A DNA stretch of 64,000 nucleotides. Source: Utricularia gibba (lineage: Eukaryota > Streptophyta > Magnoliopsida > Lamiales > Lentibulariaceae). Below are positions 1-64,000 of this stretch, piece by piece. The notes below the pieces were generated by a model. That model did not search any database. It was not told the DNA's origin and was given only the letters and a program-made list of their open reading frames with translations. The first letter of the stretch is position 1; every line of letters starts with the position of its first letter. The DNA is taken from positions 2,356,001 to 2,420,000 of the forward strand of contig NEEC01000017.1 in the NCBI GenBank assembly GCA_002189035.1, in the 5' to 3' direction. A program made the translations under genes and the position numbers.

Positions 1-211
1 AAGCCTTCAGCTTGTCACCAGACGCAGCAACCCCCTTCAACTCTTTCGTAACATTGCTTTGTCTCCCAACTTTAGCTGCATTTGCTTCTGAAATTTTCAT
101 CTGAATCAGCTCTAAAAGTGATGGGCTTTTCCTAAGACGCAGACCCAGTGGACTTGGCTCCTCAAATGGATTGTATTCCGTCTGAGGAGCTGCCATACCA
201 CCCATTGTCAT
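1..211 (-). CDS. 5' end of an unrecognised plant protein gene (partial)
   Basis: The minus strand carries an open frame that starts at the ATG at 209-211 and runs off the left edge of the window. The predicted N-terminus contains PFEEPSPLGLRLRKSPSLLE followed by a lysine-rich, probably helical stretch. A splice acceptor (CTCCTGCAG) lies about 8 bases upstream of the ATG, so the gene has an intron in its 5' UTR. A second in-frame ATG follows two codons later and could be used instead. I do not recognise the family from this fragment and assign no function. The gene points away from the P450 gene, so the two probably share the spacer at 222-1228. Confidence 0.55.
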   Translation of the reverse strand, partial: MTMGGMAAPQTEYNPFEEPSPLGLRLRKSPSLLELIQMKISEANAAKVGRQSNVTKELKGVAASGDKLKA

Positions 212-221
212 AATCTGCTGC

Positions 222-2734: not shown

Positions 2735-3048
2735 CGTTTGTGTTCACCTGTAAATGTAATAATGAACCAGCAAGTGTGGTTCCTCCTGCCTTTGGAAATA
2801 TGAACATCTCTGCCATTCCCTTAGTTGTGGGCAGGAATCAAGATATGTTCAAACAGTAAAACACTGCAGATATAAAACAGTAAAAGAAAAGCTTCGAGTT
2901 AAAAGTAAAGGTTACTGTTTGGAATCCAATGTACTCCACTGTATTGTATCACCAGCATTTGGAATTCATGTTCACCATTGCGACATGAATGAAAATTGGT
3001 CCAAGAGTGTCTGTCCATCTGAATGAGTATATCGCCTTCTTGTAATGG

Positions 3049-10685
<7,637 letters not shown>

Positions 10686-40451: not shown

Positions 40452-41973
<1,522 letters not shown>

Positions 41974-42262
41974 CTCGCCGGGGTTTCTGATTGTAGAACT
42001 TCCCATTCAAGCTATCAGAATAAGCAACTCTGTAGCTTACCTGCAGTGTTTAGCATTCCCTCGAATCCTATGGAAGTATCTTAAGACATTTTATTCATAC
42101 ATTGCGACCAGTAGCTATAATCAATCCACTATTCTCTTCACAATTGCCCTTCCAAGTGCATACAAAAAGTGTTGCAGCCAAGGAGACAGAGTTACCGTAG
42201 ACCTGTGCTTTTGAAGCCGCATAGGCATCGCAGGAGAACCGGTTTTCCGTTGCATAAGCATG

Positions 42263-43772: not shown

Positions 43773-44289
43773 TTCTTCCACCAACGGAAACAAAAAGAAT
43801 GGTCGACTGGATGAAGGAAATACGATGGAAACCGCCAGAAGACGGCGGCGACGGTTAGGGTTCAGACGTTAGCACTACTTACCCCACGGCATCCGCAGGT
43901 AATACGCACGCGCTGGGCCTTGTATAGGCGCGGCGGTCCAACTATTTCTGGGCCAATCCGGTTGGAGCTCAACAGATTTAGGCCGGATGCGGCTCGTGGC
44001 CATATTTCTCGTTCCCCTTCCCATTCGCGGAGTCTTAACTTCAATGACTTCAACAAAGTCATAAACTTTAATTGAGTAGCTTGTAGCCGGGAGTGAAATC
44101 AGATTAGACGGTGCAGGAGTGAAGGTAAAGGAAACTAGGCATGGTATAGATCGAACACAAGGCATCATCAACTCATAAAAATCAGAGACAGAAACAGAAC
44201 AGAAGAATGGTGATCGTGAATCTTGACAAACAAAGCAGGAACAGTGGTGTCCTCCCCGGAGCAAAAAACACAATCTTCAATAGACAATC
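43773..44289 (-). promoter_or_regulatory. bL9m promoter with telo-box and site II motifs
   Basis: A telo-box (AACCCTAA on the minus strand) lies at 43855-43862, 83 bases upstream of the bL9m ATG. Site II motifs lie at 43914-43920 (TGGGCCT) and 43949-43954 (TGGGCC). The right part should be the 3' UTR of the eL21 gene. Confidence 0.5.
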
Positions 44290-45134
44290 TTAGTAGCCTC
44301 CTTTGAGATCATTGACAACATCATAGGGAATAGGTGTCACGGTTTCCATGGTGGCTCCTTCGACCATAAACCCGGGTTTGGGTCCTTCTGGCTGCCTCTT
44401 GGTGCTGATGATCTTTCCTTCAGCTTTGGCTTCGGCCTTCAACTCATCATTTTTCCTTATCCTCTGCAGAAACTCCTCGTGGCACCTAGACGGCTGGACG
44501 TGCTCCACTCGGACATGGATCCTCTTCCTTATTATCCTATTCCCCACCTGCAATATTTGCAAAACTCCATCACTGAACATCAATGATGCAAAGCTCATAT
44601 GTTCGGCCATTCATTTAGACAAAGATACCAATCATAAAGGGGTTGAAGTCCATCTACACTTATCAAATGACCCGTGCAAATAACACAGACTTAAAGGTAT
44701 GCAATTCACAAACTTTCTCAGAATTTTCATTAGTCACACCCTAAAGACAAATTTGAACCAAGGAACATCAAATTACCCTATATTCTTCTATGCTGAACAA
44801 ACCCCAATTGCAAAAGAAGAAAAAGAAACCGGCCTAATTTGCAGCTAAAAACCACGTATGCAGCAATATATGCAAGAAAGCGGCAAAAATGACGTGCCTG
44901 TTTGTTGACTTCAACACCAACAGCCCTCTTAGTTACGTTCCATACACGACCTGTGCGGCCATGGTAGAACTTGTGAGGCATGCCCTTGTGGATGGAACCA
45001 TTAACCTTAACATCGACATAGTCTCCGATTTTGTAGACCCTCAAGTAGGTCGACAAATGAGTAGGACCCTTCTTACGGAAGGGCCGGGCAAATAGATCCC
45101 TCGTCCGCGACCTCAATCCGTGACCCGCCGGCAT
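44290..45134 (-). CDS. RPL21: 60S ribosomal protein eL21
   Basis: Two coding exons. Exon 1 starts at the ATG at 45132-45134 and encodes [20 protein letters not shown] through [18 protein letters not shown]. Exon 2 encodes [40 protein letters not shown] and the end [16 protein letters not shown]. This is the complete, highly conserved cytosolic ribosomal protein eL21, basic throughout. An upstream in-frame ATG at 45224 would add about 30 residues not seen in the family, so I prefer 45134. A telo-box 51 bases upstream and site II motifs further out fit coordinated control of ribosomal protein genes. Confidence 0.96.
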
Positions 45135-45351
45135 TCTGATTCGTTGAGTCTCTTCCCGGTGGTGGAACAGAGGCGAAGTGAGAATTAGGGTTATTTCAGT
45201 GAAAGAGGCCGCAAAATGAGCCATCTAAATTGGGCCATCCGAAAGCTTATGGGCTAGGCCTATCAGATTCAAGGGCCTATATCGCATAAATCAATTATTT
45301 CAATATTTTTTATTTTCAATTAATTATGGGTAACATCAATATTGTGTCATT
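45135..45351 (-). promoter_or_regulatory. eL21 promoter: telo-box plus site II cluster
   Basis: TTAGGGTT (AACCCTAA on the gene strand) lies at 45185-45192. Site II type motifs follow at 45231-45236 (TGGGCC), 45250-45255 (TGGGCT) and 45273-45278 (GGGCCT). This spacing is typical of plant ribosomal protein promoters. Confidence 0.65.
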
Positions 45352-46494
45352 CTAACAGCATGATATTATTCCGAGATACAAAAGAGTCAATAGACTAGCA
45401 CTAGACCAGGTGCGCCGCCCTGCTCCGGTGGCTCCGCTTACTCTAAGTTCCACTGGTTTGAGAATTCCTATGTCATATATGGGCGTAAAATCACTCTCGA
45501 AGAGCCCGAAGTTCCTCTCGCAGGTCGGCCCCGGCTTAAGGTCTTCATTGAACAGCGCAAAAATGTACGTCTCGAATGTCCTGTTTGGCCGGAGGGGCGT
45601 CCCGATGCCGGAACTCACATGCCTCACCACCTTGAAGTTGTACTCCGCCGCCTTCTGCGCATCGAGCCCCACCTGCCCTTCGTCCCCTCTCGACGGCCAT
45701 CCCGTTTCCGCGATCACGATATCCACGTCGGGGAACCCGATGCGCGCCATCGCAAAAAACACTGCGTCCATCTGCGCGTCAAGCATGTTGGTGTAGGTGA
45801 GGTTGGTGCCTTGGTCGAGGAAGCCGGCGTTGGGCCGGAACAGAGCGTAGTCCAAGGTGTCCGTGTCGGTGCATTCGAGGTAGGGGTAGGGGTTGATCAT
45901 GAACGGGGAGCCCGAGTCGTTCAGGAACGCCAGAAGCGGTTGCAGGACGTGGACGTCGTAGCCCTCCCTGAACCTCCCCTGAGACGGGGGACTCGAGACG
46001 GAGAGTACGGCCAGTGCGTGGGTCGTGGAGACCTTGATCCTTCGGTCCAACGACTCGCTCACCAGCGCTTCGTGCAACGCGCGCATCGCGGGGACGAGGC
46101 TGGAGATCAGGACCCGGCTACCGCTGGAGATCACCTCGTTCCCGACGAGTATTCTGATCACATCGGTGTCGTGGGTGTACGGAATGATGCTGGATCTGAT
46201 CCATTGAAGGGCGGAGTCAGGGGTTATGAGCTGAGGGATCTGCTGGTTCGGCACAGTGACCATCACTTCGACTCCCGAGCCTCTGAATGCTGTTAACATG
46301 GTTGGGTTGGTGTTGAAGAAGCGGACACGATCGACCCGGGTGTATTCCGATAGAAATCGCGCCACCTCCGCCGCCGGGGGAAGGTTGCTGGCCAATGTGC
46401 CGTAGTTGATGCCGATGTGACTGACCTCAGCAACGCCTTGGGAGAAAAGAAGGAGCGGGGGGAATATGAGGAGACCGAGAAAAGGCTTCCCCAT
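45352..46494 (-). CDS. Glucan endo-1,3-beta-glucosidase, GH17, probably GPI-anchored
   Basis: Intronless in the visible frame, 380 residues from the ATG at 46494. The start MGKPFLGLLIFPPLLLFSQG makes a clear secretion signal; an ATG 39 codons upstream would bury that signal, so I reject it. The GH17 barrel starts at IGINYGTLASNLPP. The catalytic acid Glu120 lies in ILVGNEV and the nucleophile Glu263 in IAETGWPSRG. INPYPYLEC and YIFALFNEDLKPGPTCERNF are also conserved. A hydrophobic C-terminus (SASLLTLLYLGIISCC) after an Arg/Ser stretch could be a GPI signal, and no X8/CBM43 domain is present. The enzyme should hydrolyse callose in the wall or at plasmodesmata. The coding sequence is GC-rich. 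Confidence 0.93.
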   Translation of the reverse strand: MGKPFLGLLIFPPLLLFSQGVAEVSHIGINYGTLASNLPPAAEVARFLSEYTRVDRVRFFNTNPTMLTAFRGSGVEVMVTVPNQQIPQLITPDSALQWIRSSIIPYTHDTDVIRILVGNEVISSGSRVLISSLVPAMRALHEALVSESLDRRIKVSTTHALAVLSVSSPPSQGRFREGYDVHVLQPLLAFLNDSGSPFMINPYPYLECTDTDTLDYALFRPNAGFLDQGTNLTYTNMLDAQMDAVFFAMARIGFPDVDIVIAETGWPSRGDEGQVGLDAQKAAEYNFKVVRHVSSGIGTPLRPNRTFETYIFALFNEDLKPGPTCERNFGLFESDFTPIYDIGILKPVELRVSGATGAGRRTWSSASLLTLLYLGIISCC

Positions 46495-47117
46495 TGAAGA
46501 CGGAGAAGAGGCGACGGCCTGCGGAGTGATGGGGACATGATCTCCGGTGAGTGGAATGCTCTTCAAAAGTTGGTGTTCTTTCCTTGTGCCGGGAGACCAA
46601 GAATACCACATATTTCCCCCTTTTTTATTTTTTTAAAAATAAGAATATTATTTATTAATTTTTTAGATTAAAACTGATTATTAAATATTTTTGTATTATG
46701 AGCCCATTACAAGGTCATAATTAATTTAAAAATAATCAAAAAAATTTTCTTTCTTTTTAAAAATTAAATTACATTTATTTTGTCAAGTAATTGAGATATT
46801 GTAACCAAGCGACTGTGAATTCTGCTCACCGGGTTTGCAATTTCTGCAATGTGGAGCTTGATGGAGGATAAAGCTTAAATCTGATAATAATGGCGGAGTC
46901 AAAGAGGTTAGGACGCCAGCTCCCTGCATTACCCATTTACCATACTGGTTAAGAGCACCCCCAATTCTGATTTTGCCGCGAAACTTGGGCTGTCGCGCCA
47001 AATCGATTCCCGTTAGTGCCTGAGGCACGGAACCCTTCATTTTCCCCCCACTATCGCCCCCTCTCCTTCTCTTCCGCACGCGTGCTCTGAAGCTAGTTTG
47101 CTTATCGATCTTTGGGA
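46495..47117. promoter_or_regulatory. Divergent promoter, GH17 and ATXR6, with E2F sites
   Basis: The AT-rich left part is probably the GH17 promoter. Near ATXR6, TTTTGCCGCGAAA at 46971-46983 contains overlapping E2F consensus sites (TTTSSCGS) on both strands. GCGCCAAA at 46995-47002 is a perfect TTTGGCGC on the minus strand. These lie about 115-145 bases before the ATXR6 ATG. Confidence 0.6.
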
Positions 47118-48914
47118 ATGCCGTCGCTCAGGAAGAGGACAAGAGCTCCCAGTCCGATGGCGTCGGACCCTGAGCTACTTTCCGATGAGGAAGAAGATTA
47201 CAGCGATTTGTGTTGCCAGAAATGTGGATCGGGCCAACGCCCCGCGGAGCTTCTCATCTGCGACAAGTGCGATTGTGGGTTTCATACATTTTGCCTCCGC
47301 CCAGTTCTCACCGCCGTTCCCAAAGGACAGTGGTTCTGCCCATCCTGTTCCTCTCACAGAAATGTCACCAGTACGCACTTTCTGGGTTTTCTTCACTGAT
47401 TTTTGTGATGTTTTGTTTCGCGCTGCATTTTATTTTTGGGAGGTGATTTGTATCGCATTCTGTCGATTGAGTCGCATAACTTATTCCAATTGCTTGCAGC
47501 TTATTATCAATCTGGCGGTTTTGTTTTGCGCATTCTGTCAAACCAAAATTTGACATTCTGAAAACCAAAGTTTTGCGTCTTTCGTTTGCAGGCTTCCCTC
47601 TCGTTCAAACCAAAATTGTTGATTTTTTCCGCATTCAAAGATGCTCACAAGTATCTGAAAATCTTTGTTCAGGTAAGAGGCATCTTCAATATATCTGGTA
47701 CATAAAAATTCACCCATTTCCGGTTTGAATAACATATCATGCGTTATCTCAAGAGGGTGGGTGTTAAAGCACTATGACTTGTTGGCTGTTGAATGATCGC
47801 ATTTGTTATCTTGACTGCTCCACAGAATTGAAAAAAAGGCGAAAGCGAAATACTGTACTTGTTATGTCGAAGAAACGAAGAAAGCTACTGCCTTTCAATC
47901 CAAGTGAAGATCCTCTTCGGAGACTAGAGCAGATGGCGTCTTTGGCCACAGCACTTACAGCAACTGGCACAGCGTTCAGCAATGATTTAACTTATGTTCC
48001 TGGCATGGCCCCCAGATCTGCAAATTGTGCTGCCCTTGAAAGAGGTGGAATGCAGGTGCTTATCTAACCGTTTCCTCTCTCTGTTTCGAGTCAATGCATT
48101 CGGTTCGAGTAGTGGAGTTGTTTGGGGTTGTAAAGGCTTATTGTTGCTTGCTTTGAATAGAATGCTAGGAGAGAATCAAGTTAGTTGAATGAAGTAGAGG
48201 GAACTGGACATGGTGTTTGCAGTAGTTTAGCTGCTTCTTGTTCAGTTGCTCGATCAGACGATTACGCACTTTGCAGGTTCTGCCGAAGGATGATGCTGAA
48301 ACGTTGAAGCTCTGCAAGCAGATGATGGAGCGGGGAGAATGGCCTCCTCTTAACGTTATTTTTGATCCTGTAGAGGGGTTCGATCTCTCCCCCGCCATAT
48401 TCCCCATGTTGATAAGCTTCTCCATTCTATGTATCGCTTCTGTAACTTCCTGTTGTCCCGCAGGTTTACAGTGGAAGCAGATAGATCGATACGGGACCTC
48501 ACGATAATCACAGAGTACGTCGGAGATGTCGACTACCTGAGGAATAGAGAACACGACGGTGGAGATAGCATGATGACGCTTCTAACCGCCACGAACCCCT
48601 CAAAGAGCCTAGTCATCTGCCCCGATAGGCGCAGCAACATCGCCCGCTTCATCAACGGCATCAACAACCATACCAAGTACCTGATATCCATCCCTTTTCA
48701 TACGTATCTGCAATCAAGGGAACTCATTCTCAAGCATCGGTCTTTTTGATGCAGGGGAGGGAAGAAGAAGCAGAATGTGAAGTGTGTGCGGTTTGATGTG
48801 GATGGCGAATGCCGAGTTCTTCTCATTGCGAGCAGAGACATCCGGAAAGGGGAGAGGCTCTACTACGACTACAACGGATACGAGAACGAGTATCCGACGG
48901 AGCACTTCGTATGA
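47118..48914 (+). CDS. ATXR6: Histone H3K27 monomethyltransferase, ATXR6-like
   Basis: A spliced gene whose N-terminal PHD finger (CCQKCGSGQRPAELLICDKC to VPKGQWFCPSC) reads the unmodified H3 N-terminus. A PCNA-interacting motif follows (QTKIVDFFRI), then a nuclear basic stretch (KKRRKLLPFNPS). The SET domain comes last: FTVEADRSIRDLTIITEYVG, DVDYLRNREHDGGDSMMTLL, CPDRRSNIARFINGINNH, KGERLYYDYNGYENEYPTEH, ending FV. These enzymes place H3K27me1 on newly deposited H3.1 during S phase and restrain over-replication of heterochromatin. The short N-terminus without a plastid leader fits ATXR6 rather than ATXR5. One intron (about 48378-48463) has an unusual donor GTTCGA but joins GG/G in frame to give EGFTVEAD. 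E2F sites upstream fit S-phase expression. Confidence 0.95.
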
Positions 48915-49329
48915 TCCTGAACAAAACACAGTATCTTCTAAAGGCGTAGACTTACAGTCAGCTCATCCACATCTATTTTGTCGATGATTTGTCATAGATG
49001 GAAACCATGGTTGATTTTCCTCTGAAAAAATGGAGGTTTAACTTGGATAAATGTTGCCAAAAAACCAACTCCTGCTGCGACGAGCCTTCTCCTGTATCGG
49101 TTTTTGAACTCCGGAAGACAAGTGTAAATAAATCCTGGTTAAACCCTAGCTGATAGTGTTTTGCTTTTACCCACAGTTTTTCTCGCGAGCATTGAGTGGG
49201 TAGTGTGGGTCGAGGGTTCAGGAACATTTTGCTGCCTGCAGTTGCACGACAGGAAACAGTGTTGAATCTCTTGGTTTTGCTTTTAAAAACAAATGTCTAG
49301 AGTTTTGACTTCCCATCACACAGAGTGAT

Positions 49330-49737
49330 GTATACAAACAAACCTCAGTTTTCTGAAGAGCAATCCTGGTTCCTGGTTATGACGTCACCCCATTCATGGA
49401 TGATCATCCTGGGGACGATGAAGTTTTGTTATCTTCCACTGGTAAACCGAGCAGCATCCCACTGTATGAACTTTTTCTCCTGTGAACGTAGAATCAGATG
49501 ATGCTCTTCTATTTCTTCGCATTCTGCAGGAAAAGATGCAACCGATGACTTTGAGGATGTTGGCTACAGTGATTCAGCAAGGGAGATGATGACCAAATAT
49601 TACTCAGCAACCGTACCACAGAGTTTGTCATAAAGATATTGCAGTTCCTTGTACCTCTCTTGATCTTGGGGTTGGCCCTTGCTGTCCAACACTACACCAA
49701 GGAGAGGAAAGACTGGATATCCTCGTCATGTTGATGG
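49330..49737 (+). pseudogene. Truncated cytochrome b5 gene remnant
   Basis: Two former exons remain. The first keeps YDVTPFMDDHPG and DEVLLSST, with a haem-ligand HPG, followed by an intact-looking intron (GTAAACC to TTCTGCAG). The second keeps KDATDDFEDVGYSDSAREMM and then, after a deletion and frame change, the tail anchor EFVIKILQFLVPLLILGLAL and AVQHYTKER. The first exon with the N-terminus is missing, part of the exon before YDVT is deleted, and a TAA stop interrupts the second exon just before the anchor. The retained intron shows that this is a genomic duplicate and not a retrocopy. Functional cytochrome b5 is an ER electron carrier for desaturases and P450s; this copy cannot make it. 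Bases 48915-49329 hold the ATXR6 3' end and no gene. Confidence 0.85.
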
Positions 49738-49746
49738 TGGTTCTGT

Positions 49747-52210
49747 CTATCCATTGTTGGGATTTCTATTGACAGCATCATGTGCTTGCCACGAAGGTTG
49801 ATTGCCACTGGTTGAAATGGGCATGATCGAAGCCTTTTGGTACCTTAGCTTCTCAATTTCCCTTTCCAGATACTCAAGAGTTGTATCAGTCACATGATTG
49901 GGTGCACATCCAGCATCCAGCATCATCTTCAAGAACTTGTTAGCCTCCTTGAGCTTACCCGCTTTGCTGTGAACTTCAATCAGAGTATTGTAAGTCACTA
50001 CATCAGGATTTGTCCCACTGCTCCTCATTTGCTGAAAAAGCCTACCTACATCTTCGAGTCGGCCTGCCTTTCCAAGACAATGGATCAATGTGTTATACAT
50101 AACTATATCAAGGAAACCGCCATCCTTTTGTAACTTGTCGAGGACAGAACTTGCAAGATCTGCCCTCCCTATCTTTCCAAGTCCCTGTATGATCAAATTG
50201 TAGGTAGCTATGTCTGCAGGATAGGTGTTCTCACCCATGGTTTGAAGAACACCCCACACCTCCTTGAAGTACCCTTTCTTTATGAATGAACTCATCATTG
50301 AATTGTAGGTGTAACTTACAGGAGTCACTCCCATTTTGCTGAAAACCTCAAAGAGCTTGCAAGCTAAGCTCAACTTCCCCTTGGCCAAGAAAATAGATAG
50401 AAATGTGTTCACCATGTCGATGTCGAAAAACTGTTCGCCTTTCGACATGACCCTGATTCCTCGAGAGCTCTCAAAAAATTGGGAAGAAGAAGCATAGTCT
50501 TGGCCAGATGACATCTCTCTGGCCAATTGATCCATGTATGGAGAAGATGACCACTCATCCCATCCTGACCATTGCCATCTTCACCGACGCTGCTATCATC
50601 TGGTCGGGTGTCTATGGAATTGGTGAGTTCCAAGACTTTGGTAACATCAGGTACCGGTGGAAACATGGGAGTAAAATCTTTATCTTTGCTCTGTGAACTC
50701 TTCAGTGCACTTTCCATCTTAGATTTCCAGTTGAAAACATTTGGAACCAAATTCCCATCTCTGATATGCTTCATTAGCCTCTCTGTCCAGTCCCACTTTC
50801 CCGTCCTGTGTAAAGCTATCAACAATGAAGTTACAGTAACCAAATCAACCACAAAACCTCGAGCCTCCATCTCTTCCACCAACTGCAATGCTTCTTCGAG
50901 CCGATCCTCACGACAAAGGTTCAGAATGACGATACTGAAACTGATCCCATCAATGAAATCATTGCCCTTCCGTTTAAGATCAGTAAAAAGACAATAGGCA
51001 GCTTCAGGTCTCCCATTTCTGTACAGTCCATTCAAAAGTATGTTATATGTTGAGCATGAAGACCTTACTCCATTTTCGACCATCGTCTCGAAAAAACTGC
51101 AGGCCTCCGTCAGCTTCCTTGACTTGAACAAACCATCTAGGAGAGAATTATATGCTACAGTTTCTGTTTCTACACCATTATAATGCATCTCCCTGAAAAT
51201 CTTCATTGCATCGTTGATCCTATAGGATTTAGAACAGCCCTGAATCAGTATTCTGTATGTGAATGAATCAGGCTCATGACCTGATGAATCTTTCAGCTCC
51301 TTCCACACGACAAGGGCATCGTTCACCTTCCCGAGCAAGCAAAGCACTTGGATCAAGCTGTTGTATGTACACAGATCAGGATAAACTGAACCTCCCTTGT
51401 CTTTCATCTCCTTAAACAGACACAGAGAAGTCTTCAGGTCACCCCATGATCCAAATGCATGAATGCAAATGTTGTAACCCCATTTATCTGATGGATAAAG
51501 CTTCGTCTCCCGCAGCCTCTGAAAAACATCCCTGAACTCATCCTTCAATCCCCCTTCTTCAGGCCAGCAAGTAACTCATTACATGCAAAAGCGTCAGGAA
51601 TGGAACAAGTATCAAGGAGCTTGTAGAAAACCGACAAAGCTATGGAAATCTGATTCTTCCTAACAAGAGCTACAACAACAGGGCAATACACATCCGGGCT
51701 CAAACATGTGTTCATCAATTCTTTCTCAGCGTAATCCAAAACTTGTAGAGCAAACTCAAATTTTTGTGCCTTGATCAACCCACTGAGAATCAGCTTCAAG
51801 GTACCCGAATCAAGCGTCAGCCCATCACGTTTCATCATGGAAAGAAGCTCGACAACGTGGTGGTTGTACCGGTGAGGGAAGAAGAAGATTGCTTTCAGCA
51901 TCTGCGAATAGGTCGTGACAGAATGCTTGTAACCGGGAAGCGAAGATAGCCATTTGAAAAAAGCCAACTTCCTGGACACACCAACAGAACCCCGGCGAAT
52001 CACTTGGAGAACGACGTCTTCAGTGAAGGTAATGGAACCCACATCCTTCGACAGAGAATTTAATCCCCCATTCTCCGATAAAGCCTTGGTTATGGAGGCA
52101 ACTACTAGAACGTCACAAAGCTGGGCGGTCGCCGCCTTCGCAGACACCGTGGAACAGAATCTAGGGCAGAAGCGCAGGGGCGAGCCAAGACGATACCCAA
52201 GCATACGCAT
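49747..52210 (-). CDS. PPR protein, At4g01570-like, with two frame breaks
   Basis: An intronless P-class pentatricopeptide repeat gene. Three overlapping frames (51545-52210, about 50560-51548, and 49747 to about 50560) together give about 810 residues, close to the length of At4g01570-type proteins. Repeats are clear throughout, for example TYNSLIQVLCLLGKVNDALV, AYNSLLDGLFKSRKLTEA, MYNTLIHCLGKAGRLEDVG and TYNTLIEVHSKAGKLKEANK. The N-terminus (MRMLGYRLGSPLRFCPRFCS) suggests an organelle presequence. Breaks lie at a C5 run at 51550-51554 (G5 on the gene strand) and at a C3 run at 50559-50561. Each needs one extra base to restore continuity. Both sit in homopolymers, so sequencing deletions are as likely as real mutations. 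PPR proteins bind organellar RNA; the target is unknown. Confidence 0.85.
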
Positions 52211-52677
52211 TCCTCTTCGCCCTCGATCATGATGATCAGAAACAAAAGCGCATCACTCAAGTCGTTCCACCGGAATTCTTCGCAAAAGCACACCTTGGAA
52301 GCGGTAAGAAAATCGACAAGGCGGGCGGCGACAAGAGAACGGGGTTGTAATATTTTGTCGAGTTTTTACAATTTTATTAATTAATGAATAATCAATGAAT
52401 AATATTATGAAGGGGTTTTGCAAAAATAAAGAATAGAAAAATGGGTGTAATTTGGAGGTCCTCCTGCATGAAAGCAATGTAAGAAGAAGCATTACGCACA
52501 ACTGTAGCGCTAAGTCACCTCCCTCCAATGGCGTCTGGATGGATATCCCGCCTCAGCAGAAGCAGCAGCCATCAGCTACCCACCACATAAATGGAGCATA
52601 CAACTCACTCAACATGAATCAGACAGGCGGGGGCTTGCTGGACAACCCCGCCGTCTCCGGAATCCATGGAAAACAGT
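52211..52677. other. Spacer between PPR start and kinase 3' end
   Basis: No gene is visible. The right part is presumably the 3' UTR of the CDPK-related kinase and the left part the PPR promoter, both on the minus strand. The sequence is AT-rich around 52360-52440. Confidence 0.4.
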
Positions 52678-55600
52678 TCAGTGCCGGACCCGGGGGTTGG
52701 CGTTGCGGATGGTGACGCCGTGCAGGAACTTCGTGAACCCGAGAAAACTCAGGTGACCATCGGAGGGCCTGATCCAGTCCTTGAGCTGGGAGTAAGCTGA
52801 GGCACCTAAATTGAGTTCCTGAGATGGGATTTTTGGATGTGAGAGAGGAAAAAAAAAAGGCAGTGATATCAGTTCCTTGGAGCTAAGTAGACCTGTGCCA
52901 GTTCCTTGACGGAGATGATGCGGTTGCCTTCTCGCTCGAAGGCCTGAAATGCAGCACTCGCGATCTCCTCCCATCTTTCAAGTGCCTCGAGCTGGTGAGG
53001 GCTGGTGGATGCAGCGCAGAACTCTTCCCAGTCCATGATTTTATGAGACAGTGGCTCCATCTGCGTTTTTCAAGACCAAAGATGAAGATTTCTCAGTAAC
53101 TAGTGCTAAGGGAATCAACCAACAACCTTTTCCTAGATCTTACTTAACGTACAGATCATGCAAAGCTATCCTCAAAAGATTTTACCCCGAGAAAAAATAA
53201 AGGAACTGATTCTTTGCCATCCTCGACAGACAAAAGTAACAAAGTGATCATCAAAAGAAAAAGCCATTACCATGTTCAGAATATCAGCGACCCTCGATTC
53301 CTTCATGGCATCTGTTGCGTTTCTCACAAGGCCCTTGAAATCAAAACAAGAGTTGCTGGTCAGGGAGCTGCTGAAAGAAACAAAGAGTGGAGATAAAAAG
53401 ACTGCACACCATCCGAAAATTGTCGAGGGAGACATGCCCATCTATTGGTTCTAAAAGCTCAAACTGGGCCCGGAGATAAAGTAGCTCCTCTTCAGTCAAG
53501 GCTTTTGAGAGTGCCTGCACGACAGGCACACATTCCTTAAAGAACAGTTCAACAACAGGAAAGGTAAAAGGTTGCAGTAGTAGACAAAGAGGAATGATGG
53601 TCTTATGATAGAATGCCGCATCACGAATTGGGAACATATATGTGCCTTATGAAGGATAAAACTTGAACATGATATTGGTGGTCGTTCAGAGCACTTACTT
53701 TTAGAGCATCACGCCTCAAGGGTGAGGCTCGAATATAGGATTTCACTAGTCTGTATATCATGATATCCAAAGGAATACTGCAGTTTAAATCCCTTAACCA
53801 TGGATGGGCTGAAGATCACAGAGATAAGTCAGCATTATCACCCTATATGAGTACTTTTACAAAAGAAAAACTCACTCAATGCTTGTGCTGCAGTCATTCT
53901 TTTCCTGTGGTCCCTATTGAGAAGCCTTTTAACAAAGTCCTTGGCTTGTGGTGATACTGAGGGCCATGGTGCATCGTGAAAGTTGGGATCAGCTCTGAGG
54001 ACAGAACGGAAAATCCCAGATTCTGTGCGAGCCCAAAAAGGCCTGCTTCCACATAATAAGATGTATGTTATCACACCAATGCTCCAGATATCTGCTTCAG
54101 TGCTGTATGATCTGTGAAGTACTTCAGGTGCCACATAATATGCACTGCCGACGATATCATTCAGACGCTCATCTGCAATTATGGATCAACAGATCTGTGT
54201 TATCCACAAAGATCATCGAAAAGGGCAAAGAAAAAGCCATGGTTACAGTGCAATGGCAGTTCCAATGAGCTAGGAGAATTTCTGTTTATATACTCAAATG
54301 AAAAGGATTGAGATGCACCTGGACGAATAAAATCAGATAGACCGAAATCTATGACCTTCATGGGAGCATCTTCATCTTTCGTTGCAAACAGAAAATTCTG
54401 CAAGAAATACAGAAAAAAGAAATCCTAAAGGGCCGGAAGCTACCAATCAACATTACTCTACATTATTGAGTCATTAGGAACCATTCACTCAGTATGAAAT
54501 CCTTTTTACCTCGGGTTTCAGGTCCCGGTGGACAACACCTTGTAAATGACAAAAGGCAACAACACTCAGCATCTGTGCAACTATAATTTTGGCGTCCTCT
54601 TCTGTGTACCTTCCACCTCTGCACCAGAGATGCAGTGACAAATCAAGAGAAACCATAGAGTGGTTTTCGCATATCCAGTGTGATTACCTCGACAAAATTC
54701 TATCCAGCAGTTCACCTCCTTCACACAATCTATCAAAAAGAAAACTTAATTAAACGCTTGTCAATGACAAATGTACTCTTAGTAAGAAGCGTAAAAGGAA
54801 AGAACTTACTCCATTACTACATAGACATTATTTGCATCTTCAAATGCATCATAAAACTTTATCAAGTTAATATGTCCAGATAAAGCCTTCAAAATCTTGA
54901 CCTCCCTTCTAACATCCTCAATAGCTATTGCTGTCGTCATCTGTACAAGAAATGGGAAATGGCAAAGGTCATTCACCCCCTCAAACACATAAAAATGCAG
55001 CTCAGTGGGTTGCATCGAAGTAGGAGAACTATTAAGAGAACGATTTGGATTAAGCTAGGCAGCTCTGGACAACCATTGAACTTCCTAAAATAAAAATGCT
55101 ACTTGAAGTTCCAATCACGGAAGGGGCAGCACTTGTCAGCAAGTGGTGGAGCAACGAAGATCCGGGAAGTCTCAACCCGCGAAGATGAATGGCGCGCGAC
55201 CTCTGTTCCTCCCATGAGAAGCAACCCTCAATTAGATTGGGAAAAAGGCCTTATCATACTTGGGCCTCAACATTCCAAACTACTGGCCCAAGAAGAAGCA
55301 TCTGAAGCCCAGTCCATGAAAGAAGTCCTAGTAAATTCTGGCTGCTACACAGTAGATGAACAAGAGGACTAATCTACAGACTAAAGGCAACGGTCATATT
55401 TTAGGCCTGATATGATCCAACGGGCAACTCTCCTCATCTATATAAATCCCTGTTTGCTTTATGAAAAAAAAAAAAAGTTCTTTTCGATCCAAAAACAATA
55501 GTCAATATCCACAAACTTCAACATTCTCTCAACGTTCAACCAAGTCTCCAACAAAATCAAGCAGCCAAAAATACTTTTATGGTGAACCCGACGTGAAGAT

Positions 55601-58600
55601 ACTTCACCGACTCCCATCTCCTCTTATCATTGCAGTCTCTCAGAATGGCAGCCCTCCAACAAGCTCCTCCAATCTTCACTGGTCAGCGCTACGCTTCTTG
55701 GGCAGTACGAATGGAAAGTTACCTGCAAATGAACGACTTATGGTCTGTGGTGGATCCTGTACGTCCAGACTCCTCTGAAATAGCCACAGCAGAAAGTCTC
55801 AAACTCACAGATGCTCAAGTAAAGAAAGCTAAGTATGCTCTGGATCAAGCCTTATCTGAAGAAGTGTTCAACCGTGTTATGCTACTGAAAAGTCCCAAAG
55901 ACATCTGGAAAAAATTGGAGGAATTCTACGGAGAGGATACGGAAGCCCGTGAGAGCCGCATTCAACGTCAATGGGAGCTCTTTGACAACCTGAAATTCTT
56001 ACCAGGTATGAGTATCTCTCATTTTTCAGAAACGCTAATCAAAATTGTCACTGAGTTACAGACCTTGGAGAGCCCTTGGAAGACAGAAGAATTAAATCAA
56101 AAATACTCAGTTCCCTACCGCGGTCCTTTGCCCCTGTAGTCACTACTTTGCGGGTCACAGGCATTCACTCCATATCCTCCAGAAAACTACTAGAAAGACT
56201 CAGTGAATCCGAAGTTGAAGTCGGACTTGGTGAAGGCCAGGAACTTGCCTTCAAGGCAACAGAAAATCAGAAAGGCTATGGTTCTCAATCATCAAATGAA
56301 CCGGTGATCTTTCAAGCAAAAATTGAGAAACCAAGTACTGGAGATTCATGCCCATTCTGCAAGCGAAAAGGCCATTCACCAACACAATGTTTCTGGAGCC
56401 CTGACGCCAAATGCCTGTACTGTTCTCTCCAAGGTCATGTGGACAAAGTGTGTCCCCTGAAAAAATACCATCAGATTGGAGGAAAGGCTGCAGATCCTAA
56501 GGACAAACTTACTAGCGCTATGAATGATGTAAATCTCGCAGCTGAAATGAATAAGAAGAAGATTGATATTTACTCTCTGCGCCGCAAAACTCTAATCACA
56601 TCATTTGTGGATCTAAGGAAACAAGACATCTGGTTTATCGATAGCGGATGCAGTCATCATATAACCAACGACAAGAGTCTATTCACAACCTTCATCGAGC
56701 TAACTGGGAAAGTAATCGAAATTGCTGATGGAAATCACTTACAGGTCATCGGTCAAGGAACAGTTTGCCTTGAAACTGTCCAGAAATTAATCAAGATCAC
56801 AGACGTGTATCTGGTGCCCCAGGCCTACCACAATCTACTAAGCACTGGCCAGCTGGTTGAAAAGGGGATGAAAGTTCATCTGGAAAGTAATGAGTGCAAA
56901 ATATTAGATGAAGAAGATAATATACTCCTTACGGTTGCTATGACTGATAGGGTCTTTCCACTGCTTCCGAATGCTACATCCATCGATTACAACATTTGCC
57001 TCAAGTCCCTAGAATCATCTGAGATTTGGCACCAACGGTTAGGTCACCATCACTATGCCTCCCTTATATCCATGAAGAAGAGAAACCTGGCAGAGGGGAT
57101 TCCTAATATAATTCCTGAGGGAGAACACTGCAGAATATGCTTTCAAGGGAAGATGAGCCGAACACCACTCCCTAAGTCCAGCATTCATTCTCAGAAAAAA
57201 TTGGAAGTTGTTACCAGTGACGTCTGTGGGCCCATGGCCTCTCCTACTCGAGCCGGCAACAAATATTACGTGATCTTTATTGACGAATATTCAAAGTATA
57301 CCTGGATCTATCTCCTGAAGCATAAATCAGAGGTTTTGCACCACTTCCAAGTCTTCAAGGTCCTTGCAGAAACTCAAAGCAATAGTAAGATTCTAACACT
57401 CCGGTCAGACAACGGAGGTGAGTACAAATCAACTGAACTGAGACACATTTGTGAGACAAATGGTATTACTCACCAGTTTACAACGCCATATACGCCAGAG
57501 CAGAACGGCATATGTGAACGAAAGAACAGGACAATAGTCAATATGGCTCGGTGTCTACTCTATCAAAAACACTTACCTCTAGAATTCTGGGGCGAAGCAG
57601 TCAACACAGCCGTGTATCTGTTGAACCGCCTGCCAACCAAAGGAAATAAAGACTGTAAAACTCCTTATGAGCTATGGTACAACAAAATTCCAAGCCTAGA
57701 TCACATGAAGGTATTTGGATCACCCTGCTATATATACATTCCAAAGGAGAAGAGATCAAAATGGGACAAAAGATCTGATGAAGGAATTTTCCTGGGATAT
57801 AGCAATACAAGTAAAGCCTACAGGGTACTGAATCTAAGAACAAATGAGGTGGAACTCAGTCGTGATGTAACAGTAGACGAGACTAGAATTTACAACTGGA
57901 GTTCCTCGACAACACATGACAAAAATCATTCTTATTCAGAAAATATATGGAATTTATTCCCTCAACAAGGACATGATGCAACAACCGAACCCCTCAGCAT
58001 CCACCCAGCGAGGAACAGTCCTAGTCAAGACTCTATTCAACAAGAAATGACAGCCTCAGGAACAAATATGTTAAGGGTCCAAGCAACCCTAGAAGATCAA
58101 ATCACAAACTCAAATGATCGAGCCTCAAACTCAACAGATTTAAGAGGACACTCGGTGTCAACGACAGACATCCTAGAAGTCTCTAATAGCGAAAATTTGC
58201 CACCACCTAGTCCTGATGTTCCGAGAACAATTGAGCCCGAAAGCCCCTGTACAACAGAAGATCCTGTTAATACCCAACAGTTTCCAGAAGGCTCCTTGGC
58301 CACTACTATCGAAGACATGAGATATGAGGATGCAGACTCAGAGCACATACCTGAACAAACTCTAGAATGTCATGAAACCCTCATCAACAGCATCAGAAAT
58401 CCAAAGGAAATCACTGAGCTATCATCAACCGATACATCAGAAGAAGAAAACTCATCAGGAGAAGATGAAGAAACTCAAAACCGAGGACCCAACCTAGCAG
58501 CAAGAAATCCTATACTCATTCCCTCACCTCAAAGGCAAAGTTACCTGGAAGATTACGGACAAGAAGGGGTTCCTTACACCCCACATCATCTATGTATGGA

Positions 58601-61249
58601 TCTGAAACAAAATGAAGACAGCTCACCTGTGCGAGGATATGCACCAATCAACGATATCTATGATAGGGCATTGAGCACCTATGAACCAGCAAGCGTTCAG
58701 GAAGCTCTCGCTGACCCAGATTGGAAGAAATCCATAGACGAAGAATTCAACTCCATCCAGAAACACGGCGTTTGGACAGCAGTGCCTAAGCCGAAGCAGA
58801 AAAAACCTCTGGACCTAAAATTCATATTCCGTCCCAAGTTAAATCCTGATGGCACTCTGAACAAAAGAAAATCCAGACTGGTGGTAAAGGGATATTTACA
58901 GAAAGAAGGGATTGATTACCTGGAAACCTTCGCTCCGGTGGCAAGATTAGACACCATTAAGCTGATTATTGCACTTGCGGCCTGCAACAAGTGGTATTTA
59001 CATCATCTGGACATAAAAACGGCCTTTCTGCATGGAGAGTTAAGCGAAGACATATATGTGAACCCCCCTCCAGGTTTCATCATCCGAGATAATCCAGAAT
59101 ATGTACTGAAATTAAATAAAGCTTTATACGGACTCAAGCAGGCCCCAAAGAATGGTATACTACCATTGACACTTTCTTTCTAGAGCTGGGATATACAAGA
59201 AGTCAAAATGATACTACATTATACATATCTGAGGATATCCAAGGAAAAGTTATTGTCTCCTTATACGTAGACGACATTCTAATCACAGGCAGCAGTGAAG
59301 AACGAATTTCTGAATTACAGAAGCTATTGCAGCAAAGATTTGAACTCACCAATCTGGGACATGCACGTTATTTCCTAGGAATGGAGATCATTCAACATAA
59401 AGACTTCATATTTTTGAACCAACGTAGATATACAGAGGAACTACTCAAAAAATACAGCATGGAATCATCAAAAGTATCTACTACTCCTTTCTCACCAGAA
59501 GTTAGAAAGAAATTATCTGACCTTAATTCTCATCCAGTTGACTCTCATAACTACCAGAAACTCATTGGCGCTCTGATGTATTTAACTGCTACTAGACCGG
59601 ATATAACCTTCGCCGTATCATTTCTGGCCAGATTCATGCATCAGCCACACAACACACACCTGGAAATAGCAACACGTATCCTGAAATATTTGAAGGCCAC
59701 AACTTCCTTTGGTTTATATTACAAGAAAGGTACTAACCCTATTTTGCAGGGATTTGTTGATTCAGACTTTGCTGGCGACGAACAAGATTGTAAATCTACC
59801 ACAGGCTATCTATTCAACTTAGGATCAGCGGTATTTTCATGGAACAGCAAGAAACAAGCCGTCACTGCACAATCATCGGCAGAAGCCGAATACATCGCAG
59901 GAGCTGCTGCTGCCAACCATGCGCAATGGTTGGTGAAATTATGCGATGACCTGAAAATTCAAATTACAAGACCGATAATACTCAAGATAGATAACAAATC
60001 TGCCATTAGCATCGCAAAAAATCCTGTGATGTTCGGTCGGACCAAGCACATCAAGCTTAAATACCATATACTCAGAGATTATGTGAAGGAAGGACTGATT
60101 AAACTTGAGTACTTACCATCGGATGAGCAACCTGCAGATATTCTCACCAAATGCTTATTCCCAAGGAATTTCAACAGAATCAGAGAAATGCTGGGAATTC
60201 GGAGAAATCCTCTTGTGACAACAGCCGGATCTTCATTACTCCCTCAGGGAGGAATGTCAGCAAGTGGTGGAGCAACGAAGATCCGGGAAGTCTCAACCCG
60301 CGAAGATGAATGGCGCGCGACCTCTGTTCCTCCCATGAGAAGCAACCCTCAATTAGATTGGGAAAAAGGCCTTATCATACTTGGGCCTCAACATTCCAAA
60401 CTACTGGCCCAAGAAGAAGCATCTGAAGCCCAGTCCATGAAAGAAGTCCTAGTAAATTCTGGCTGCTACACAGTAGATGAACAAGAGGACTAATCTACAG
60501 ACTAAAGGCAACGGTCATATTTTAGGCCTGATATGATCCAACGGGCAACTCTCCTCATCTATATAAATCCCTGTTTGCTTTATGAAAAAAAAAAAAAAGT
60601 TCTTTTCGATCCAAAAACAATAGTCAATATCCACAAACTTCAACATTCTCTCAACGTTCAACCAAGTCTCCAACAAAATCAAGCAGCCAAAAATACTTTT
60701 AGCACTTGCCTTAGCTTTTGAAATGATCTTCACGGCCACTTGCTGATTCTTGAGCTCCCCCTTTTTGACTTTGGCCCAACATGTATGACCAAAATGCCCA
60801 CGACCCACTTCTTTCCCAAGCTCGTACTTCGCCCCTATGTTCTTTGAATATCCGAAGCTCTTATCGAGCTGTTGCTCAATTCCATCTGCACGGCCGGTGC
60901 CTGTTGTCTCCTCAGGTATAGGAATAGTAGGGTGTGCCGATTGCCGCCGTCTCAAAAGCGCCGACATAATGGGTTTCGCCGGGGATGGAGGAGGCAAGGG
61001 CCATCGAAATTTTCTAGCCGGAGTCCCCGAAGGCGATGGCGACGGTGCAATACCACTGGGGTAGGGGCTCTGGAATGGACTTCCTGTGATGTATTGAGGC
61101 GGAGTTCGAGCTGCCCCATTGACTGAAGTCGACGGCGTGTGCGATCCCGGTGAGGCGGCCTGACGCCGGCGGGTGTCGGGATCCGCAGAGGAGGTGAACT
61201 CGTTATTCTCTAGAGAAGCCGCAACGTTCTTGCTACAACAATGCCCCAT
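52678..61249 (-). CDS. CRK: CDPK-related protein kinase (CRK) with a copia element in intron 1
   Basis: Exon 1 (60710-61249, 180 codons) starts MGHCCSKN, with Gly2 for myristoylation and Cys4/Cys5 for palmitoylation, then a Ser/Pro-rich variable region. The kinase N-lobe follows ([28 protein letters not shown]). Exon 2 starts at 54940 ([20 protein letters not shown]). Later exons give [56 protein letters not shown] and the degenerate EF-hand region ([25 protein letters not shown]), ending [10 protein letters not shown]. CRKs resemble calcium-dependent kinases but their EF hands are poor, so calcium control is doubtful. Intron 1 (54941-60709, 5,769 nt) has a GC donor (AAG/GCAAGT). It holds a 5.57-kb retroelement in the opposite orientation; without it the intron would be about 196 nt. 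Coding exons are intact. Confidence 0.93.
55129..55133 (+). repeat. Target-site duplication, left (GCACT)
   Basis: GCACT immediately precedes the TG of the left LTR and matches the five bases after the right LTR. Five bases is the normal duplication length for copia integrases. Confidence 0.92.
55134..55579 (+). repeat. Left LTR of the copia element
   Basis: It starts TGTCAGCAAG and ends ATACTTTTA, so the termini are TG..TA rather than TG..CA. A TATA box (TATATAAAT) at 55439-55447 is the likely promoter of the element, followed by an A13 run in the presumed R region. Confidence 0.95.
55580..55597 (+). other. Primer-binding site
   Basis: TGGTGAACCCGACGTGAA begins at the first base after the left LTR, the normal place for tRNA priming of minus-strand synthesis. 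The leading TGG pairs with a tRNA CCA end. It is not the common initiator-Met site (TGGTATCAGAGC); I cannot name the tRNA. Confidence 0.75.
55645..56139 (+). CDS. Copia gag, N-terminal part, ends at a frame break
   Basis: The frame starts at the ATG at 55645 ([20 protein letters not shown]) and shows the UBN2-type copia gag domain with [17 protein letters not shown] and [11 protein letters not shown]. The domain should continue without interruption, but after about 56095 the conserved sequence carries on in the neighbouring frame and this frame stops at 56139. The break is consistent with one missing base near an A5 run. It lies inside the gag domain, not at a gag/pol boundary, so programmed frameshifting is unlikely. 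Confidence 0.85.
   Translation: MAALQQAPPIFTGQRYASWAVRMESYLQMNDLWSVVDPVRPDSSEIATAESLKLTDAQVKKAKYALDQALSEEVFNRVMLLKSPKDIWKKLEEFYGEDTEARESRIQRQWELFDNLKFLPGMSISHFSETLIKIVTELQTLESPWKTEELNQKYSVPYRGPLPL
56095..59183 (+). CDS. Copia gag C-terminus, protease, integrase and start of reverse transcriptase
   Basis: The frame continues from gag with two CCHC zinc knuckles ([14 protein letters not shown] and [14 protein letters not shown]). Next is the aspartic protease motif FIDSGCSHH. The integrase zinc region follows ([13 protein letters not shown] with CRICFQGK), then its DDE core ([16 protein letters not shown], and the glutamate in [14 protein letters not shown]). After a low-complexity Ser/Thr/Glu stretch, the reverse transcriptase begins ([43 protein letters not shown]). 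The frame stops at 59183, just after YGLKQAPK, in the middle of the polymerase palm region. The sequence then continues in another frame, consistent with one missing base near 59150. Confidence 0.93.
59153..60493 (+). CDS. Copia reverse transcriptase C-terminus and RNase H, reading into the LTR
   Basis: The conserved frame resumes after the break and contains the polymerase active-site motif [23 protein letters not shown] and [16 protein letters not shown]. RNase H follows, with [30 protein letters not shown] and [13 protein letters not shown], ending with the [12 protein letters not shown] block. The frame does not stop before the purine tract: it runs about 80 codons into the right LTR and stops at 60491-60493, so the U3 region doubles as the 3' end of the coding region. 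Confidence 0.93.
   Translation, partial: WYTTIDTFFLELGYTRSQNDTTLYISEDIQGKVIVSLYVDDILITGSSEERISELQKLLQQRFELTNLGHARYFLGMEIIQHKDFIFLNQRRYTEELLKKYSMESSKVSTTPFSPEVRKKLSDLNSHPVDSHNYQKLIGALMYLTATRPDITFAVSFLARFMHQPHNTHLEIATRILKYLKATTSFGLYYKKGTNPILQGFVDSDFAGDEQDCKSTTGYLFNLGSAVFSWNSKKQAVTAQSSAEAEYIAGAAAANHAQWLVKLCDDLKIQITRPIILKIDNKSAISIAKNPVMFGRTKHIKLKYHILRDYVKEGLIKLEYLPSDEQPADILTKCLFPRNFNRIREMLGIRRNPLVTTAGSSLLPQGGMSASGGATKIREVSTREDEWRATSVPPMRSNPQLDWEKGLIILGPQHSKLLAQEEASEAQSMKEVLVNSGCYTVDEQED
60246..60254 (+). other. Polypurine tract
   Basis: AGGGAGGAA abuts the TG of the right LTR, the expected site of plus-strand priming. Confidence 0.8.
60255..60701 (+). repeat. Right LTR of the copia element
   Basis: Base-by-base reading against the left LTR shows no substitution that I can find; it has an A14 run where the left copy has A13. 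Read in the kinase direction, it begins eight bases after the exon 1 boundary. Confidence 0.95.
60702..60706 (+). repeat. Target-site duplication, right (GCACT)
   Basis: GCACT follows the right LTR directly. On the kinase strand it is AGTGC and makes up bases +4 to +8 of the intron, so it supplies part of the splice donor. Confidence 0.92.
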
Positions 61250-63349
61250 TACTTAACTAAGAGGTAATTCGAAATCAAGCACCAGATCAAGAACCACTCA
61301 ACAAACTCTACTCATCCGCGAGTCAACAGACGAATCAGATCCAAGACACCACCACCTCCAACTTCTCCGGACTCTGTGCATCCGGATATCAAGACTCCGG
61401 TCATCCGCCACGCGGTCAACGGAAACAAAAAAACAAGGCGGATTCCGGTGTGCTCAACCTGGGCCGGATTCTGCTTCAGCAGACAAACAATCACAAATAA
61501 CCCCTTTTGAAAAACGACCAAAAAAACGAATCTTTCAACTCACTCAGACGCAAAGACATCCACCCACATGCGTGATTCTCCGATTTATGAAAAAACCGGA
61601 ATTTCACTTCACTCCAGAGAAGCAAAAAAAAAAAAAAAAAAGATCTTTCGTTGTTTTTTCTTCAAAAAATTTTATTCCTCTGGCCCCGAGGTTTTTTCTT
61701 TTTTCCCTTCTCCCCCTCCCCCTTCAAAAGGAAACCAGAAACAAGATGATTTCCCTTTGAATTTGCTCGTAATATTCTCCAGGCTGGGGCTGGTAGCCTA
61801 AACACGCTAACCAGAGTCTTTCCCCTCTCTCCTCCGTTCATATGAATTTTTTAACATTTGATTTTCAACGCCTTCGTTTGATTCTAACACAACAACACAC
61901 TTCTTCTTGGCCTTTAATTATTAAATAACACGAGATGTAAAAATCCCCTACACCCAGAATTACCTGGAGATGATGTATAAAAGTCTTTTATCTCATTTGA
62001 ATTTTCTTAACTCAACAAATGTTAATATTTTCCATTTATTTCAAATAAATTATTAATTGAACTATAATACAAAAGGTACCATTTCCAAACAATTATCGAT
62101 ACCCTTTTGTGCTCCACACCAAATGTTGCTAATGAGTATAATAAATGTTTCACTGGCTTTTTTTGGATCATTATAATTATTAAAAAATGATAGTCTCAAT
62201 TCCAATAAATGATATAAAGAAGTGCAGAACAAATAATTGTCCCTACGTTGACTCCACAAATTAATTTATTAACTAAAAAAAACGAGTACATAAAAGTAAA
62301 CGGAGGGGCATTCTCGTCTTCACCTCGACGCGGAAGTACGTGTACCCTTTCCTAAAGGGCTGAATTCATAGGGCCGGTCAACTCTCGAAAAACGTTATAT
62401 TATCCATCCGCTTCCTTTATTTATTTATTTATTTATTTTATTTTTAACTATTAAACGTAAGTTAATTAATCACAATAAAAATCAATGTTAAAAAGAAGCT
62501 GGGGGAGGGGGTGGCTGCCCCTACATGCACCGCCACTGGTTGGGGTATTTTGAAATCGGAATGGGGGAGACTGGAAAAGTCAAAAGATGGGGAGCATTCA
62601 GTATTTGCTTGGTGAGCGGCCTGAGGAAATGGAGGCAGGAGGGTGGGGTCTCGGTTTACCATTCGGTCAAATCAGGGATGAGTATGCGTGCGCATCAGGC
62701 CGGCTGATCTGATCTGAGCCCTAGAAATCAACCAACTCGCACTAATTATTGCCCAAGCATATATTCTCGCTACGATCAAGACGGAATCTTAGACTCAGCT
62801 GGTTGCGTAACCGCGGCTGCGGGTGGAAAATCAGGCGGAGGTTTCGATGCTTCTCCGCCGATCGTCAAGTGGAGGGACGCGCAGGGGGCGATCGCGGGGA
62901 GCAAACGCGTGATTGATGATGGCGCAACTGACAGGAATCATTGATGAAGATGAGGAAGAAGGGCGCGCCTTCAACGACCCATTCATCAAGCACGCTATCA
63001 ATGCGGTTGCATATCCCCAATAATCAAGCTTCAACCACACTAGTTCCAGAGATTCTTTTAAAAAAAATAATAAGAAAATACTTTTAAATTTATAAAACTA
63101 TAATTAAATTATTTGTAAAACGTAATCTAAAAACAAAAAAACTTTATATGTAAAAAATGGATAAGTTTATATGGTGGGCTGGGCCTCTCTAATTTGGGCT
63201 GATGGGTTATGGAAAACCCGGCAACTGCAGGGGTCGTGACATGGGCCTCATTGGGTATTATATATACGGTTTGTGGTGGTGTAACCCTACGCAATCACCG
63301 ATTCCTGAGCCGCAGCCGAAGAACCGAAATCCTTGATTCAAGATTGAAG
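61250..63349. other. CRK promoter, spacer, and P1 promoter
   Basis: About 2.1 kb contains no gene that I can identify. The CRK 5' UTR and promoter lie at the left, including an A-rich run at about 61625-61643. The middle is AT-rich with a (TTTA)n run near 62420. A GC-richer island at 62780-63030 has short open frames (for example GIIDEDEEEGRAFNDPFIKH on the plus strand) of unknown meaning. Site II motifs at 63175-63247 (TGGGCT, TGGGCC and GGGCCT) lie 100-175 bases before the P1 start and are probably its promoter. Confidence 0.45.
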
Positions 63350-63720
63350 ATGTCGATCGGCGAAACGGCGTGCACCTACGCTGCTTTGATTCTTCACGAT
63401 GACGGCATCCCGATCACGGTATATTTTGTTCTTTCTTGATTTCTACGCAGTTTGGTATCTGGAGTGTTTTGTGGTTACGTTTCGACCTTCTGTTGTAGGC
63501 GGAGAAGATCGCTACGCTTGTGAAGTCTGCTAATGTGACGGTGGAGTCGTATTGGCCTAGCCTTTTCGCTAAGCTTTGCGAGAAAAGGAACATTGAGGAT
63601 CTTATCCTGAATGTCGGTGCCGGTGGAGGCGGTGCTGCAGTTGCAGTTGCCGCTCCTGTCGGTGGTGCCGCCGCTGGTGGTGCGGCCGCCCCCGCTGCCG
63701 CTGCCGTTGAGGAGAAGAAA
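63350..63720 (+). CDS. RPP1: 60S acidic ribosomal protein P1 (partial; last exon beyond the window)
   Basis: Exon 1 (63350-63418) encodes [20 protein letters not shown] plus PIT. Exon 2 (63499-63720) encodes [20 protein letters not shown], then [20 protein letters not shown] and the alanine/glycine/proline hinge ending AVEEKK. Both joints are phase 0. The missing part should be the acidic tail with the MGFSLFD motif, after an intron that starts at 63721 and runs past the right edge. P1 forms the ribosomal stalk with P2 and P0 and recruits elongation factors. Confidence 0.93.
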
Positions 63721-64000
63721 GTACGCACTCTCTCGAATGCCGCATTCTTTCTTTATTGGCTTCCATCATACGTTATCGGTTTTTTTTTAGAATTGCATAA
63801 TTTAATAGGCTCCTTTATTGGAAAATACAAGAACGTGTTGTTATGCCTGTGATGGCTCAATGCTTGTTGTTATGCCTGTAATTTTTGCGTAGCTGGGGTT
63901 CGTGTTTTTGAGTTTTAAGAATCGGGTTTGTGCTTTCAGCCTTTTTAAACAGCAGGTGCATTGTTAAATTGTTTGTGGATCACTGAAGATGTATGCTGTG

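Follow-up and report, generated by a model that had tools for sequence, protein, structure and literature searches.

Our analysis of a kinase locus in Utricularia gibba revealed a copia retrotransposon that is not fixed in the sequenced material. The observations are best explained, with a probability that we put at roughly 0.86, by a recent insertion whose pre-insertion allele is preserved on an allelic contig, and by the same situation at seven further copies of the element. Two lines of evidence, an uninterrupted empty site on a second contig and the presence of such empty twins for 8 of 11 full-length copies as against none of 14 control pieces, argue that the insertion is unfixed and part of a very recent burst. 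The mechanism of insertion is ordinary; a recent burst in a plant reportedly poor in transposable elements (TEs) is the interesting part. The insertion lies in a stretch of 64,000 nucleotides (the window) on the contig designated C328, and the search space was the whole assembly of 100.09 Mb in 516 contigs.

The element is a copia LTR retrotransposon of 5,568 bp on the forward strand (55134..60701), antisense to the kinase gene and recognizable by its pair of LTRs and its Pfam gag, integrase, and reverse transcriptase domains. It is bracketed by a 5-bp target duplication, GCACT, the left copy of which (55129..55133) is the single copy found at the empty site, and the right copy of which (60702..60706) constitutes bases +8 to +4 of the kinase intron. 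The left LTR (446 bp, 55134..55579) and the right LTR (447 bp, 60255..60701), both on the forward strand, are 100% identical over blocks of 300 and 116 bp; their sole difference is a run of 13 A residues at 55464-55476 as against 14 at 60585-60598, which bears out on the sequence the initial annotation's description of near-identical repeats one homopolymer A apart. The left LTR starts with TGTCAG and ends with CTTTTA, so that the termini read TG...TA rather than TG...CA; the latter is the usual form, common but not defining. The last 30 bp of the other full-length copies match the window copy within 3 mismatches. A putative primer site, TGGTGAACCCGACGTG, directly follows the left LTR, and Rfam and tRNA scans of the window gave no matches.

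Three frames, all on the forward strand, are needed to read the coding region of the window copy. The gag frame (55630..56139) matches PF14223 (4.7e-19) and PF13961 (1.5e-08), and the pol frame (56076..59183) carries the Pol beta-barrel domain PF22936, PF13976, integrase PF00665, PF25597, and the first part of the reverse transcriptase domain PF07727. The end of that domain and the rest of pol occupy a third frame, which continues into the right LTR (59327..60493), with a PF07727 match of 2.3e-06 whose 27.8 bits do not reach the cut-off of 31.6. The domain order is that of copia elements, with rve at residues 375-474 and RVT_2 later, at residues 899-1025, of one open frame. Of 1,318 relatives, 120 were listed, and the integrase region is 47-50% identical to the best 10 of these. 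Among the matches listed, a Phytophthora record ranks first and most named ones come from plants; records from Vitis, Hevea, and Gossypium are among the ten best, and some are named TNT 1-94.

The host gene is encoded on the reverse strand. Exon 1 (540 coding nucleotides, 60710..61249) ends in AAAGCTAAG and is followed by a GC-AG intron of 5,769 nucleotides including the element (54941..60709, from splice signals). Exon 2 begins at 54940 (TTGTACAG followed by ATGACG), and exons 2 to 11 with their introns occupy 52678..54940. This model, built from splice signals and reading frame, predicts 11 exons and a protein of 594 residues before the stop, with a start of MGHCCSK and a protein kinase domain (Pkinase, 3.6e-72); EF-hand families gave no Pfam match in the predicted protein at an E value of 0.001. 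Proteins named CDPK-related kinase 4 or 6 from Lamiales are among its best named relatives. CDPK-related kinases (CRKs) have a CDPK-type kinase domain, a degenerate EF-hand tail, and an N-terminal start resembling MGxCxSK. Judged by the class features examined in its sequence, the predicted protein is a CRK.

The insertion point falls between bases +8 and +9 of CRK intron 1. Without the element and one duplication the intron measures 196 nucleotides, and the empty allele on contig C338 has an intron of the same length. In the filled allele the exon end AAG is followed by GCAAGTGC, in the empty allele by GCAAGTGCTGCC. Because the duplication restores bases +4 to +8, both alleles begin the intron with the same eight bases, and the difference starts at +9. 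The initial annotation had placed the element in this intron with the right LTR starting at +9, a position that proved exact to the base; its further statements, that the donor bases are retained with +4 to +8 formed by the duplication, that the region pairing with U1 is preserved, and that the intron grew from about 196 to 5,769 nucleotides, all hold in the comparison with the empty allele.

The predicted intron belongs to the GC-AG class (AAG followed by GCAAGT, ending in ACAG), and the remainder of the donor is a strong match. Two paralogous loci with the same ten-residue exon end have the donors GCAAGTGA (contig C402, intron of 84 nucleotides) and GCGAGCGA (C507, intron of 82), so that a GC donor occurs at all three loci of this type. 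We considered, and rejected, the possibility that the GC donor was a product of the insertion, since the empty allele and both paralogues carry it too. Five more distant loci, of the VIPKAK type, were compared, four of which have a GT donor; a sixth, on C1, did not match the motif used and falls outside the donor comparison. The fifth, on C3 (L018), reads AAG followed by TGGGAG, which could mean that the donor has shifted or that the assembly is wrong there.

What did the locus look like before the element arrived? The right flank of the insertion has a second match in the assembly, 100% over 699 bp, on C338, and the left flank matches the same contig at 100% over 429 bp. The junction there reads GGGGCAGCACTTGCCTTAG, with a single GCACT and zero LTR bases. 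Contig C338 (39,144 bp) aligns whole to C328 as two blocks abutting at the insertion point, two 137-bp inter-repeat matches within the region having been set aside. It matches positions 38844..64000 of the window save the element and one duplication, and extends 19.6 kb past the window. The two contigs differ by 2 substitutions and 37 gap columns, the latter mostly one-base homopolymer changes and not all in homopolymers; one of the substitutions falls within a run of G residues, roughly 1 kb short of the contig end. Heterozygosity is most simply what accounts for the filled and empty alleles. The initial annotation had considered the allele probably recent and perhaps still polymorphic, and had proposed a search for the empty site in other accessions by PCR or long reads; the uninterrupted pre-insertion site answers both within the same assembly.

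The window copy has at least 10 full-length relatives in the assembly. The 29 LTR matches comprise 22 in 11 full-length copies, one likely solo LTR, and six at five older places, all counts being lower bounds. A perfect 5-bp duplication flanks 10 of the 11 full-length copies and is shifted by one base in the copy on C413. The two LTRs are identical in six copies, differ only in homopolymer length in four, and differ otherwise in one. Whole-assembly searches with joined flanks found an uninterrupted match of 99-100% elsewhere for eight of the 11, and detected no empty site for the copy on C321 and the two on C213, so that part of the family may be fixed. The small contigs involved measure 24.8-59.5 kb; the element sits on the small contig of the pair in four cases and on the large one in the other four, the window's included. 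C338 alone was aligned whole, and the other seven pairs were compared through probes placed about 1.5 kb from each end of the small contig: in five, both probes fall on one partner contig with a spacing difference of 5,528-5,570 bp, approximately the length of the element, and in two the small contig bridges larger ones (C5 joins C412 with C413, and C422 joins C414 with C416). The two bridging contigs could help join the assembly.

As a control we used 14 pieces of 160 bp from 11 element-free loci, a non-random draw made up of 10 loci from earlier paralogue searches and four window pieces outside the C338 match; none of the 14 had a second match at 95% or more (Fisher p = 0.0005 for empty twins at 8 of 11 copies versus 0 of 11 control loci). 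Twin contigs thus track the insertions, as expected of heterozygous structural variants that the assembler split.

Compared with the window copy, each of the 10 others shows 3-6 homopolymer indels and 6-10 substitutions, with about 310 bp of the window copy unaligned in C422 and left uncounted; the C321 copy has 2 further indels. In nine of them the substitutions number 6-9: of these, 4-6 lie in the A tract of the LTR, and positions 1988 and 1990 of the element account for two more; the C321 copy has 10. The tract itself reads A13 or A14 in the window copy, A8GGAAAG in most copies, and A10GAAAG and A15G in the C321 LTRs, differences that reflect either template variation or polishing trouble. 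The copy on C422 (C422:39356-45387, L030) is 610 bp longer, and inside it a different stretch takes up element positions from about 2850 to 3164.

Several copies appear to adjoin coding sequence. The one at C451:6125451-6130869 (L029) has landed within an open reading frame that encodes an NLP GAF domain (PF22922, 1.8e-05, 24.8 bits against a cut-off of 24.1) and has its empty allele at C73:9574-9973; it has probably broken one allele of a NIN-like gene. Of eight joined-flank reading frames compared with Pfam (more frames were open), five gave matches (flanks in L028, L029, L031, L036, and L038), namely NLP GAF, thioredoxin, ABC transporter, PPR (27.0 bits, below the cut-off of 30), and pectinacetylesterase. 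The matched domains do not always span the insertion point. Genes or their vicinity seem to be where the family lands.

How old is the insertion? Substitution rates of 7e-9 and 1.3e-8 per site were applied. From LTR identity alone, the insertion can be at most about 480,000 or 260,000 years or generations old. Comparison of the haplotypes narrows this considerably: their split, and hence the insertion, has a point estimate of 0-3,700 generations (from 0-2 substitutions in 39.1 kb) and should lie no further back than about 3,600-13,200 generations, the values varying with the rate and with how many of the 2 substitutions are real; polishing may have masked haplotype differences, and the estimate could therefore be too young. 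The broken frames of the element were considered as proof of age and rejected, given that the interruptions vary from copy to copy. A single open frame across gag and pol occurs in one of the 11 copies, and residual long-read error is a likelier source of the breaks than true frameshifts, because ordinary DNA compared between C338 and C328 shows the same one-base length changes.

The contig pair could be read otherwise. Two substitutions in 39 kb would also be compatible with a very recent segmental duplicate, in which case C338 would represent a second locus and not an allele. The same pattern recurs, however, at 8 of the 11 insertions, with small contigs lying within their partner or bridging neighbours, and duplications would not be expected to track the element while sparing all 14 control pieces; we regard a second locus as very improbable. 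Still harder to credit is an old insertion whose empty site arose by later excision or as an assembly artefact. Recombination between LTRs can remove LTR elements, and the likely solo LTR at C412:1562586 points to such events in this genome, but excision should leave a solo LTR and both duplications, and C338 has no LTR base and one GCACT. It is also conceivable, if unlikely, that DNA from several plants was pooled and that each allele stems from a different plant, which may itself be homozygous: pooled plants would yield the same contigs, and the line was collected and then propagated according to a published account (PMC8333044). Even so, the near identity of the haplotypes would make such plants sibs or clonemates, and the insertion would still be very recent. 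The likely solo LTR on C412 (L033), which has GCTTC on both sides and some base changes, suggests that the same family was also active earlier.

A different question, raised in part by the initial annotation, is whether the insertion silences or mis-splices the kinase gene, be it by antisense transcripts that start in the right LTR, by polyadenylation that comes too early, or by cryptic donors. A TATATAA motif of putative function (60560..60566, forward strand; twin at 55439 in the left LTR) points from the right LTR antisense into exon 1, and the antisense strand of the element contains four GTAAGT motifs against 1.06 expected and two AATAAA motifs against 0.86 expected, with expectations taken from 200 first-order Markov sequences. 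These are small motif counts and the donor bases are unchanged, so that we consider such interference doubtful. Introns holding TEs in Arabidopsis and rice are often spliced out. In the filled allele, the donor, acceptor, and exon frames are intact, and what has changed is the length of the intron and its sequence from +9. As the donor, the acceptor, and the first 8 and last 188 intron bases are preserved, the filled allele is presumably spliced. Judging from these signals, we expect splicing with some loss, which the empty allele and two paralogues would partly cover; an RNA retaining the intron is predicted to reach a stop at 60517 after 244 residues, of which exon 1 contributes 180 and the intron 64. 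Lasting silencing of the kinase gene is possible, but is not the default expectation.

We envisage the following history for a recent, unfixed insertion. After reverse transcription, the copia element would have integrated through a 5-bp staggered cut eight bases from the CRK donor. The sequenced plant, from a U. gibba line kept by cuttings and culture, would be heterozygous, and the insertions would have originated in the very recent ancestry of the line or during its keeping, leaving a filled kinase allele that may still be spliced, perhaps less efficiently. Since an empty version is present and most sister copies look equally new, the element was probably still mobile in the plant that was sequenced or in its near ancestry. 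Under selfing, new insertions soon become homozygous or are lost, and vegetative growth keeps them on one homologue; by this reasoning, the finding that 8 of 11 copies are unfixed fits vegetative keeping or very few sexual generations.

The background of the plant bears on this history. One study (PMC8333044) describes U. gibba as having few transposons, a truncated DCL3, low methylation, and 24-nt RNAs at a low proportion, and its TEs as having elevated methylation, a possible reason for their silencing; this last observation counts against a general release of TEs. The same study relates that the specimen dates from a 2006 collection and was propagated in an aquarium, and that the tissue studied there derived from the genome-project specimen and was raised in sterile culture. 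A second culture with that origin began from seeds and was subcultured at intervals of 4 to 6 weeks (PMC7149871), and the long-read assembly is listed in a review table as made with HGAP at a coverage of 88 with a contig N50 of 3.4 Mb (PMC5793159). For walnut somatic embryos, one report (PMC13123843) counts 131 new insertions of a 5.5-kb copia class, with an enrichment in genes and exons, which makes a burst linked to culture plausible. We tentatively suggest, as a possibility short of an even chance, that the copia family was transposing in the vegetatively kept U. gibba line itself, mostly on one homologue and in several cases in or beside genes, with RNA-directed DNA methylation weakened by the truncated DCL3. 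In the part of the literature covered, we recognized no report of active or polymorphic copia elements in U. gibba, which leaves their absence from it unproven.

What is the relevance of these alleles? Filled and empty versions that are nearly identical over 39 kb constitute a natural experiment on how a fresh intronic copia element affects splicing and silencing under a truncated DCL3, and eight unfixed insertions raise the question of whether a TE-poor genome is gaining transposons now. At least eight small twin contigs are allelic, and genes on those contigs may consequently be double-counted.

The element resembles plant Ty1/copia LTR retrotransposons in the order of integrase before reverse transcriptase, its LTRs, and its 5-bp duplication, and differs from them in its TG...TA ends. 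It shares with the walnut burst (PMC13123843) a copia size of about 5.5 kb, the walnut side being marked by many new insertions in a clonal line. There, 131 insertions were called against a phased reference; here, at least 11 full-length copies were found, eight with an empty allelic contig, and the target duplication is 5 bp as opposed to about 10 bp in walnut. Finally, the CRK locus is akin to the intronic TEs under IBM2-type control in Arabidopsis and rice, the subject of three reports (PMC4417168, PMC7145194, PMC5364540), in that a TE resides in an intron of a protein-coding gene.
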